From positions 1 through 35,955 of the forward strand of contig JAISHJ010000049.1 of the NCBI GenBank assembly GCA_031262625.1: DNA of 35,955 nt, written 5' to 3'. Positions 12,160-15,241 of this stretch are shown piece after piece. This DNA is from Ruminococcus sp. GTDB lineage: Bacteria; Bacillota; Clostridia; Oscillospirales; Ruminococcaceae. The position numbers and the translations under genes are program-made. Under the pieces are notes generated by a model. That model saw only the letters and a list, made by a program, of their open reading frames with translations. It did not search any database and was not told where the DNA came from. The number at the start of each line of letters is the position of its first letter. Within the stretch, counting starts at the first letter, position 1.

Positions 12160-13008
12160 GTGTATAAAATAGCATACAAAAAAATGCTTAACCCGACTGT
12201 AGGATTAATGAAAATTGAAGCGCCGCTAATTGCAAAAAAAGCTTTGCCGGGGCAGTTTATAATCCTTCGTACAGATGAAAACGGTGAGAGGATTCCCTTA
12301 ACCGTTGCGGAGACGGACAAGAAGTCTCTCGTAACGATTATTTTTCAGCTTGTGGGCGCGACAACTATAAAATTAGGCGCAATGAACGAAGGCGATTACT
12401 TATCTGATTTTGCAGGACCTCTCGGTCGCCCTTCAAAGCTTGAAGGGCTTAAAAACGTTGCTGTAATCGGCGGAGGTGTCGGCTCTGCAATTGCTTATCC
12501 TGTTGCGAAAGGTTTACACGAAAACGGCGCGAAAGTTCATATTATAGCAGGGTTCAGAAGCCGCGACCTCGTAATTTTAGAAGAAGAATTCGCCGCAATT
12601 TCCGACGAATTTTTAATAATGACCGACGATGGTTCATACGGGCAAAAAGGACTTGTTACGGATGCACTTAAGGCTATAATTGAGCGGGGTGAAAACCTCG
12701 ACGAAGTTATCGCGATAGGACCTCTTGTTATGATGAAATTTGTCGCAAAACTTGCGAAAGAATATAACATAAAAACCACCGTTTCGATGAATCCGATAAT
12801 GGTTGACGGCACGGGAATGTGCGGATGCTGTAGGATTACTGTCGGCGGAAAAACTAAATTCGCTTGCGTTGACGGTCCTGATTTTGACGGATTTGAAGTA
12901 GATTTTGATGAAGCTATGAGCAGACTTTCGGAATACAAAGTTTTCGAGGGAAATGCTAAAGACCACGTTTGCAATCTATTAAATATGAAGAACGGGACGG
13001 TGAATTAA
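12160..13008 (+). CDS. nfnA: NADH-dependent ferredoxin:NADP+ oxidoreductase, small (alpha) subunit
   Basis: Likely the small subunit of NfnAB, which couples reduced ferredoxin and NADH oxidation to NADPH formation by flavin bifurcation. The start is GTG at 12160 (AGGAAG at 12147-12152), not an upstream ATG inside the preceding gene; this gives 282 residues. A ferredoxin-reductase-type FAD domain has RIPLTVA (44-50), then a nucleotide-binding GGGVGSA (104-110). The C-terminal iron-sulfur motif has Cys221, 223, 224 and 236, with Asp216 just before. Known NfnA binds [2Fe-2S] with one Asp and three Cys, which fits. The partner nfnB follows after 2 bp. A generic sulfide dehydrogenase-type name is possible. 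Confidence 0.93.
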   Translation: MYKIAYKKMLNPTVGLMKIEAPLIAKKALPGQFIILRTDENGERIPLTVAETDKKSLVTIIFQLVGATTIKLGAMNEGDYLSDFAGPLGRPSKLEGLKNVAVIGGGVGSAIAYPVAKGLHENGAKVHIIAGFRSRDLVILEEEFAAISDEFLIMTDDGSYGQKGLVTDALKAIIERGENLDEVIAIGPLVMMKFVAKLAKEYNIKTTVSMNPIMVDGTGMCGCCRITVGGKTKFACVDGPDFDGFEVDFDEAMSRLSEYKVFEGNAKDHVCNLLNMKNGTVN

Positions 13009-13010
13009 TC

Positions 13011-14396
13011 ATGCCTAACATGAGCTTAAAGAAAAATGATATGCCGTCCCAAAAGCCTGATGTACGTAACAAAAATTTCTCGGAAGTAGCCCTCGGTTAC
13101 AGCGAGGAACAAGCTTTAGATGAAGCTTCGCGCTGCCTTAACTGCAAGAATAAACCCTGTGTTTCGGGTTGCCCTGTGGGGATTGATATTCCTTCGTTTA
13201 TTGAACTTATGAAGGCGAAAGACTATATCGGAGCGCATAAAAAAATCACCGAAGCCTCCTCTCTTCCGGCTGTTTGCGGCAGAGTTTGCCCTCAAGAATC
13301 GCAGTGCGAAGGAAAATGTGTTCGCGGGATTAAGGGCGAAAGTGTAGCAATCGGACGGCTTGAACGCTTTGCGGCGGATTTTTACAGCGCTAACTGCGAA
13401 GAAAAAACGACCGGTAAAATTACTCCCTGCGGTATAAAAGCGGCGGTTGTAGGTTCAGGTCCGGCAGGGTTAACCTGTGCGGGTGAACTTGCGAAAAACG
13501 GCTGTGAAGTTACCGTTTTCGAGGCTCTCCATAAGCCCGGCGGAGTACTTGTTTACGGAATTCCCGAATTTAGGCTTCCGAAAGCAGTTGTTGCGCGTGA
13601 AGTTGAAGGCTTAAAATCAATGGGAGTTGAAATTGTCACAAACGCTGTAATTGGGCGGACAATTACTGTTGATGAACTTTTTGAGCAAGGCTACAACGCG
13701 ATATTTATCGGTTCCGGCGCGGGTCTGCCGAACTTTATGAAAATTCCCGGGGAGAGCCTTAAGGGCGTGTATTCCGCCAACGAATACCTGACTCGGATTA
13801 ACCTTATGAAGGCGTATGAAAACGAATCCGATACACCTGCAAAACGCGCAAAAAATGTTGCTGTTGTCGGCGGCGGAAATGTCGCTATGGATGCGGCAAG
13901 ATGTGCTAAACGTCTTGGTGCAGAAAATGTTTATATAGTTTATCGCCGCTCCGAAACGGAGATGCCGGCGCGTACGGAGGAAGTTCACCACGCAAAAGAA
14001 GAGGGAATTATCTTCAAAACTCTCTGTAATCCTACCGAAATTATAGGCGATGAAAGCAAAACAGTTACACAGTTAAAATGTTTTGAAATGACTCTCGGTG
14101 AGCCGGACGATTCCGGGCGCAGACGTCCTGTAGTAAAGCCCGAGTCGGAATTTATTCTTGACTGTGATGCGGTAATTATGGCAATCGGAACGTCTCCGAA
14201 CCCGCTTATAAAAGACACTACGGAAGGGCTTGACACTAACCGCTGGGGCTGTATAGTAGCGGATGATAACGGTAAAACTACACGCGAAAATGTATATGCC
14301 GGCGGAGATGCAGTAACCGGCGCAGCTACGGTAATTTTAGCGATGGGTGCCGGAAAAACTGCCGCACAAGCTATACTGAAAAAATTTGAAAAGTAA
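13011..14396 (+). CDS. nfnB: NfnAB large (beta) subunit, glutamate synthase small-chain-like flavoprotein
   Basis: Large subunit partner of NfnA; in the known enzyme it carries the bifurcating FAD, two [4Fe-4S] clusters and the NADPH site. The frame is open from 12969, but ATG at 13011 lies 2 bp after the nfnA stop with GGGACGG at 12995-13001, giving 461 residues. Cys42, 45, 50, 54 and Cys89, 93, 99, 103 form the N-terminal cluster ligands (one ligand may be non-Cys in NfnB). FAD binding is at GSGPAG (148-153) and NADP(H) binding at VVGGGNVAMDAAR (285-297). Without NfnA it would look like GltD; the pairing decides the call. A large palindrome begins 4 bp after the stop. Confidence 0.93.
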   Translation: MPNMSLKKNDMPSQKPDVRNKNFSEVALGYSEEQALDEASRCLNCKNKPCVSGCPVGIDIPSFIELMKAKDYIGAHKKITEASSLPAVCGRVCPQESQCEGKCVRGIKGESVAIGRLERFAADFYSANCEEKTTGKITPCGIKAAVVGSGPAGLTCAGELAKNGCEVTVFEALHKPGGVLVYGIPEFRLPKAVVAREVEGLKSMGVEIVTNAVIGRTITVDELFEQGYNAIFIGSGAGLPNFMKIPGESLKGVYSANEYLTRINLMKAYENESDTPAKRAKNVAVVGGGNVAMDAARCAKRLGAENVYIVYRRSETEMPARTEEVHHAKEEGIIFKTLCNPTEIIGDESKTVTQLKCFEMTLGEPDDSGRRRPVVKPESEFILDCDAVIMAIGTSPNPLIKDTTEGLDTNRWGCIVADDNGKTTRENVYAGGDAVTGAATVILAMGAGKTAAQAILKKFEK

Positions 14397-14400
14397 CAAG

Positions 14401-14559
14401 AACTTGTATTCATAGCGTGAAGTCGTTCGAGAGCGGCGCGATTTTTTCGCTATGCAAGGAAGTTTTGCGCCGCTTTGCTGACGCAAGGCAAGCAAAACTG
14501 ACGTAGCAGAGCGGAAAAAGCGCGCTGCTATCGGGCGGCTGAACCTATGAATACAAGTT
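14401..14559. repeat. 159-bp imperfect palindromic element (MITE-like or structured RNA)
   Basis: Perfect 15-bp terminal inverted repeats (AACTTGTATTCATAG at 14401-14415 and its complement at 14545-14559) bound a segment whose inner arms also pair. An inner pair AGTTTTGC (14461-14468) and GCAAAACT (14492-14499) has the same centre, 14480, as the ends. Between them, roughly three quarters of positions of the arm 14424-14468 match the reverse complement of the right arm. Several exceptions are G-U pairs in plus-strand RNA. There is no ORF of note and no clear target-site duplication. It may be a non-autonomous transposon or a structured 3' UTR of nfnB. Confidence 0.8.
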
Positions 14560-14564
14560 ATAAA

Positions 14565-14589
14565 ATCCCCGCAAAAATTTTGCGGGGAT
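14565..14589 (+). terminator. Perfect 12-bp hairpin, probable terminator for the nfnAB transcript
   Basis: ATCCCCGCAAAA and TTTTGCGGGGAT form a perfect inverted repeat with a single-base centre. There is no T run after it on the plus strand, so intrinsic termination relies on the stem's own T-rich inner part. It could also stabilise the RNA 3' end or act on the minus strand. It ends 25 bp before the lipoprotein gene. Confidence 0.5.
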
Positions 14590-14614: not shown

Positions 14615-15241
14615 ATGATAAAAAAATCAATAATTATTGTAATTAGTATGTTTATGTTTGGTTTGACTGCCTGCGGTTTAAGTGAGACAGAAATGAACAA
14701 TGCGGCGACCGGAATTCTCTCTGCAATTCAATCGGAAACGAGTGAAACTACAGTCAAAACTACAGAGAAAAAAGCGGGAATTACAGAGACTGCGGAAGAT
14801 GATATTATGACGGCGGAAACTACTGCCGCAGAGACTGCAACAGTTACGACTACAACCGCGCCTGCTACTACTACCGTTACGACAACTACTGTTGCGCCTG
14901 TTGATAACGAAGCGGAGTACATAAAATCGCTTTTTGATTCACAGAGCAGCGACGTTTGGGTAACCGGCAGCGGTGTCGTTACGCGTGTCCTAAAGGACGA
15001 CAATGAGGGCGACCGCCACCAGCGTTTTATTCTCGAATTATCTACCGGGCAGACCCTGCTTTTTGCGCATAATATCGACATTGCGCCGCGAATTGATGAC
15101 ATCGCGAAGGGCGATATAATCAGCTTTTACGGCGAATATATCTTTTCCGATGAGGGCGGCACTGTCCATTGGACGCACCATGACCCGGACGGCAGTTCCG
15201 ACGGCGGTTGGCTTAAAAAAGGCGATACGGTTTACAAATAA
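14615..15241 (+). CDS. DUF3465 domain lipoprotein with Thr-rich linker
   Basis: A secreted, membrane-anchored protein of 208 residues. The N-terminus has Lys3-Lys4, a hydrophobic stretch and the lipobox GLTAC with Cys20, so it should be lipidated. Residues about 45-105 are a low-complexity Thr/Glu/Ala segment resembling a cell-wall spacer. The C-terminal domain (about 107-208) contains VWVTGSGVVTRVL, RHQRFILELSTGQTLLFAHN and GTVHWTHHDPDG, which I recognise as DUF3465, a small uncharacterised beta-rich domain. The biochemical role is unknown. AAGGAG at 14603-14608 precedes the ATG by 6 nt. It runs convergently into the acetyltransferase gene on the other strand, with 9 bp between the stops. 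Confidence 0.88.
   Translation: MIKKSIIIVISMFMFGLTACGLSETEMNNAATGILSAIQSETSETTVKTTEKKAGITETAEDDIMTAETTAAETATVTTTTAPATTTVTTTTVAPVDNEAEYIKSLFDSQSSDVWVTGSGVVTRVLKDDNEGDRHQRFILELSTGQTLLFAHNIDIAPRIDDIAKGDIISFYGEYIFSDEGGTVHWTHHDPDGSSDGGWLKKGDTVYK

Follow-up and report, generated by a model that had tools for sequence, protein, structure and literature searches.

A palindromic repeat behind nfnB in a Ruminococcus genome is very probably an IS5-type non-autonomous transposable element with a widely kept hairpin core

Results and discussion

The palindrome that follows the nfnB-like gene in the analysed window (the whole stretch of 35,955 nucleotides from contig JAISHJ010000049.1 of a Ruminococcus sp.) is very probably, at a probability of roughly 0.9, an IS5-kind MITE, a transposable element that is non-autonomous. 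By every test made it behaved as a MITE and thus belongs to a known kind of element, and judged from the genome comparisons below it is to be regarded as a MITE and not as a feature of nfnB. Its putative movement by an IS5-type transposase is well supported. The new part is the core of the element, which is deep, polar and structure-conserving and persists while the terminal repeats differ.

The element in the window

An earlier reading of the sequence alone had described perfect 15-bp ends 4 bp after nfnB and inner arms that continue to pair. This description was verified: the 15-bp ends (AACTTGTATTCATAG/CTATGAATACAAGTT) pair without mismatch over 14401-14415 and 14545-14559, beginning 4 bp past the nfnB stop codon (TAA, 14394-14396). 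In the alignment of sibling copies the element starts with G and finishes with C (G-AACTTG...CAAGTT-C), so that G14400 has to be counted in, with its partner C mutated to A14560, and the limits in the window become 14400-14560 (161 bp), one base more per end than 14401-14559. The terminal repeats are thus 15-16 bp long, and the element has no coding capacity; the sole listed open reading frame of at least 100 aa that reaches into it is antisense and has its start inside the left end. It carries no gene, and matching transposases were found only in other genomes searched. The features are collected in Table 1.

Table 1. Features of the element and its surroundings, in window positions
Feature	Positions	Strand	Remarks
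Complete MITE copy	14400-14560	+	Full-length match to covariance model R1; + is the best-folding strand and the model strand
Left terminal inverted repeat GAACTTGTATTCATAG	14400-14415	+	16 bp identical to the left end of L228 (IS5-family transposase gene copy)
Right terminal inverted repeat	14545-14560	-	Outermost base mutated: A14560 for C
Left target flank CAA	14397-14399		Decayed TNA duplication
Right target flank TAA	14561-14563		Sequence at site
Hairpin tip	14477-14484	+	Loop about 14480-14483, from the + strand fold
Core direct repeat, left copy CAAGGAAGTTTTGCGCCG	14455-14472	+	Family form CAAGG-N8-CGCAG
Core direct repeat, right copy CAAGCAAAACTGACGTAG	14489-14506	+	Opposite the left copy in the hairpin, two internal loops
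nfnB-like gene (NADPH-dependent glutamate synthase / NfnB family)	12969-14396	+	Upstream neighbour, outside the element

When both strands were folded, each was far below its shuffled counterparts, with -95.1 kcal/mol on the + strand (shuffles -49.6 +/- 4.2, z -10.9) and -71.1 kcal/mol on the - strand (z -8.0). The strand difference of 24.6 kcal/mol is, taken alone, only modestly unusual, with differences as large arising in 3% of simulated decayed palindromes. A second hairpin (TCCCCGCAAAAATTTTGCGGGGA) lacking a T run lies directly 3' of the MITE at 14566-14588; it was not seen in the nfnB-lipoprotein gaps of congeners.

Dispersed copies and target duplication

Searches of the genome that holds the window, represented by a fragmented assembly (1.35 Mb, 67% complete), recovered four further copies (at C109, C48, C84 and C100), five in total. 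Two of these are full length (94% and 89%), and the other two are internally deleted (about 114 and 57 bp). The sibling copies at C109 and C48 are flanked by TAA/TAA and TTA/TTA, respectively. Across many genomes, identical 3-bp flanks were found in 38 of 51 copies, all of the form TNA (19 TTA, 17 TAA and 2 TCA), compared to a mean of 17 and a maximum of 28 when the same 51 flank sets were randomly re-paired. The fourth flank base was also identical in just one of the 51 copies, which sets the target duplication at exactly 3 bp. The insertion target is thus TNA, mostly TTA or TAA, and such a 3-bp duplication is the footprint that a DDE transposase leaves. The statement that no clear target duplication is present therefore applies to the window copy, where it is blurred (CAA/TAA), and not to the sibling copies, where it is clear.

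An exact 24-mer of the element gave no match in the genome contig collection, and the element was without match in the plasmid and phage collections; the 15-mer end matched viral contigs 78 times, some of which are expected by chance. A decayed end of the same type (ACCTATATTCATAACG, G000:C109:4125-4140, about 1683-1698 of L002) lies about 25 bp past the copy at C109 and is perhaps a remnant of an older insertion.

Empty sites and gene neighbourhood

Comparison between congeneric species revealed the site without the element. In G001, G002 and G004, the same threonine-rich lipoprotein gene starts no more than about 20 bases past nfnB, with nothing in between; in a fourth congener (G003) a different gene lies 3' of nfnB. 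The element was consequently either inserted in the lineage of the window or lost elsewhere, and insertion would be the simpler account. The lipoprotein gene itself (window 14615-15241), conserved behind nfnB in these three species, gave no NCBIfam match.

These junctions also bear on the proposal that the palindrome is a structured RNA, a 3' UTR or small RNA that protects or processes the nfnAB transcript. The strong fold of the + strand, the G-U bias of that strand and the location a mere 4 bp past nfnB speak for such an RNA, but the element is missing at the same place in the three congeners, and its other copies in the same genome adjoin unrelated genes. Nor was the orientation towards neighbouring genes consistent: among 25 copies, with neighbours judged from the longest open frame only, 13 were co-directional, 8 opposed and 4 mixed, which indicates that the element is no tool of any single operon. 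Rfam 15 held no match for the window, with only matches below the gathering score over the element. A structured RNA dedicated to the nfn operon is accordingly very improbable. The MITE reading, which had been offered alongside it, accounts for the dispersed copies, the 3-bp TNA duplications, the absence from congeners and the IS5-family relatives with the same ends.

IS5-family transposases with matching ends

Parents were sought across the bacterial family with PF13340 (DUF4096) and protein queries, after which flanking repeats were scanned for. In sister genera this yielded transposase genes of the IS5 family that have GAACYTGT ends and are flanked by TNA duplications. One of these (L225, 807 bp) has ends GAACTTGTCCACATAG that match at 16/16 positions and TTA/TTA flanks, and another (L230, 837 bp) has ends GAACCTGTTCTCAATAA and TGA/TGA flanks; in both, the transposase is encoded in two overlapping frames. 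A third (L196, positions 798-1764, 967 bp, TTA/TTA flanks) has its transposase split by a 159-bp palindromic MITE nested at 1129-1287, which shares these ends and has TCA/TCA flanks of its own; this IS5-family element is the likely parent of its nested MITE. The left end of L228 (GAACTTGTATTCATAG) equals that of the window element over 16/16 bp and leads into a transposase frame, of which the right part is lost. An intact autonomous copy with the exact terminal repeat of the window was not recovered, L228 being truncated and L260 running off the contig end. When named genomes were scanned for the end sequence, other Clostridia proved to carry MITEs, both short and full-size, and the start of this transposase turned up in two uncultured Ruminococcus records.

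The partial query proteins matched NF033580 (IS5 family) at 1.3e-26 and 5.5e-25, below the curated cut-off, whereas the PF13340 match was above its cut-off; matches to PF13586/PF01609 were weak and below cut-off. The 3-bp TNA duplication presumably suits the IS1031 subgroup of the IS5 family. Two sets of candidates were rejected: PF01609 transposases from ten genomes, whose ends do not match, and numerous lone GAACCTGTATTCA sites from other genera, considered as autonomous elements, which proved to be decayed or one-ended MITEs.

REP and REPIN elements are short hairpins with a GTAG/CGTC tag, moved by a Y1 (RAYT) transposase and lacking a target duplication. A REP-like identity had been suggested for the palindrome, and dispersed extragenic palindromes with imperfect stems are shared with such elements. 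The size of 161 bp, the long terminal repeats and the 3-bp target duplication do not fit, however, and the matching ends recovered by the PF13340 and protein searches sit on IS5-family genes of the DDE type. We consider this origin to have a negligible chance.

Taken as a MITE, the element would be moved by an IS5-family transposase (DUF4096 and DDE, two overlapping frames) that is supplied in trans and recognises the GAACYTGT... ends. The enzyme would excise or copy the element and insert it at TNA with a 3-bp duplication, and insertions may often settle just past stop codons, where TAA is naturally at hand and the damage least. The window copy is probably immobile now: the right end has mutated, and profile and protein searches of its 67%-complete genome found no transposase of the matching IS5 group. 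If transcribed together with nfnAB, it would fold as a single long hairpin of about 160 nt, which might act, like the hairpins of ERIC or Correia elements, as an mRNA processing or stability element and be tolerated for its compact fold.

Reach of the element family

A covariance model was built from 25 full-length copies. At E <= 1e-5 it matched in 156 of 398 genomes (about 40%) and in 56 of 126 genera of the bacterial family, nearly always over the full model, and the length of the elements was almost always 158-163 bp. Copy numbers are lower bounds, as up to seven candidates were scored per genome. In each of G239, G170 and G292, about 55-77 sites resemble the terminal repeat (up to two mismatches, both strands), compared to 3-8 in controls. 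Among the newly found copies, flanks were readable in 28, most of which showed a perfect TNA duplication, and this argues for real elements and against chance hairpins. Terminal repeats vary among subfamilies, while the pairing of the hairpin core is kept.

The positions that change least form islands. Among 31 genomes, CAAGG (14455-14459), CG.NG (14468-14472), CAAG (14489-14492) and ACGYAG (14501-14506) are near-invariant, while the stems have many variable positions. Together the islands make up an 18-bp direct repeat, CAAGG-N8-CGCAG, with an offset of about 34 bp between the starts of its two copies in most elements. They would correspond to facing, paired internal loops in the hairpin, or to two equal sites in DNA.

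Pairing and strand bias of the core

Compensatory changes, which the sequence-only reading had wished to see examined, were looked for in the 25-copy alignment: 57 pairs are predicted there, and for 44 of them one sequence or more carries changes in both partners. RNAalifold gave -59.4 for the model strand and -19.8 for the opposite strand. The G-U pairs on the + strand that become A-C mismatches on the - strand had been pointed out for the window copy; this was correct and recurs through the whole element family. With pairs chosen in an orientation-neutral manner (G-U and A-C scored alike, so that neither strand is favoured), 152 G-U cells stood against 31 A-C cells. Reconstruction on a tree gave 67 one-sided G-U events versus 30 A-C events (p 2e-4), together with 98 double Watson-Crick changes; the related copies behind these pairing statistics are not independent of each other. 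For 26 of 27 copies, the stronger strand was the one expected from the polarity assigned by homology. A wider set of 41 copies, partly oriented by the covariance model itself, which leans to G-U, showed a smaller excess (161 G-U versus 88 A-C cells). The hint at an RNA-level constraint in the window thus gained strength at the level of the family, though as a property of the element and not of nfnB.

Selection acting on one strand seems to preserve the hairpin core, and we give an RNA-level role for it about even odds. A somewhat less probable, more specific proposal is that of a mobile structured RNA, in which an ancient hairpin, about 130 nt long, resides inside IS5-dependent MITEs and has kept its fold and polarity in at least 56 genera. 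Its finer details, with paired internal loops in which CAAG faces CGYAG, twice, and terminal repeats that differ as transposases change, are put forward just as tentatively. Such an RNA would serve the element, for example as the binding partner of a protein from the host or the transposon, or by rendering insertions into transcripts harmless.

Alternatively, the core of the MITE could be maintained by forces at the DNA level, with no role for RNA. A transposase or host protein would then bind both CAAGG-N8-CGCAG sites, and template switching would correct the quasi-palindrome. The 18-bp direct repeat and its 34-bp spacing are as expected for two equal protein sites, template switching can maintain hairpin symmetry and yields double changes without intermediates, of the kind counted above, and neither orientation relative to genes is favoured among the insertions. 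Binding to duplex DNA does not, on the other hand, predict that one and the same strand prefers G-U to A-C (67 versus 30 events), or the agreement of the stronger strand with the homology-set polarity in nearly every copy. Strand-biased mutation could be a source of the G-U/A-C asymmetry. We regard a purely DNA-level explanation as a serious contender that falls a little short of an even chance.

Relation to known elements

The IS5 family (NF033580 / PF13340; IS427 and IS1031 groups) shares with the window element terminal repeats beginning GA... and the TNA duplication. The sister elements of this family carry a transposase in two overlapping frames, whereas the window element has no gene and no visible similarity to autonomous copies beyond the terminal repeat. 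Tourist-like MITEs belong to PIF/Harbinger, the eukaryotic relatives of IS5; they are alike by description in their 3-bp TWA duplication, palindromic body and DDE transposase acting in trans, and differ in being eukaryotic and in their terminal repeats.

MITEs are usually viewed as decaying debris with selection on the ends only. In the present elements the ends vary by subfamily, while the polar hairpin core keeps its pairing, its loop sequence and its length (mostly 158-163 bp) throughout a large family of Clostridia. Should the strand bias reflect selection on RNA, an abundant, uncatalogued RNA structure would be present in many transcripts of these bacteria. For annotation, the element explains a recurrent 161-bp repeat, able to break assemblies, just behind many stop codons. 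A search of the open-access literature found no paper with these end sequences or this element family.

The ERIC, Correia (NEMIS), RUP and QMITE2 MITEs are likewise short, palindromic and extragenic, with a transcript predicted to form one long hairpin (PMC10969869), and internally deleted derivatives occur among them as well as here. Correia and ERIC elements affect mRNA through RNase III cleavage or altered transcript levels (PMC10969869). The window family differs from this kind in its ends and duplication, and also in its core spanning 56 genera, with compensatory changes, fixed polarity, a direct-repeat motif and variable ends.

Further palindromes were observed in the course of the searches. 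In G239, a MITE is nested inside another family copy with a similar end sequence (L043, about 1410-1750). Palindromes with unrelated ends (TTAAGGCAACACCGCACAACC; ATTGATGTMCCAA) occur in G301 (L049, L066), G316 (L048, L065) and G355 (L047), and have the tip CCTTGCTGACGCAAGGCAAG in common with the window element; two of them (L065 and L047) match the full length of the model, which looks as if the core can swap ends. Other long palindromes (L063:1093-1291, L294:326-539 and L156:1339-1499), with GGGYNTGT-type ends and an apparent 2-bp TA duplication, look like a second class of MITE in the same genomes.
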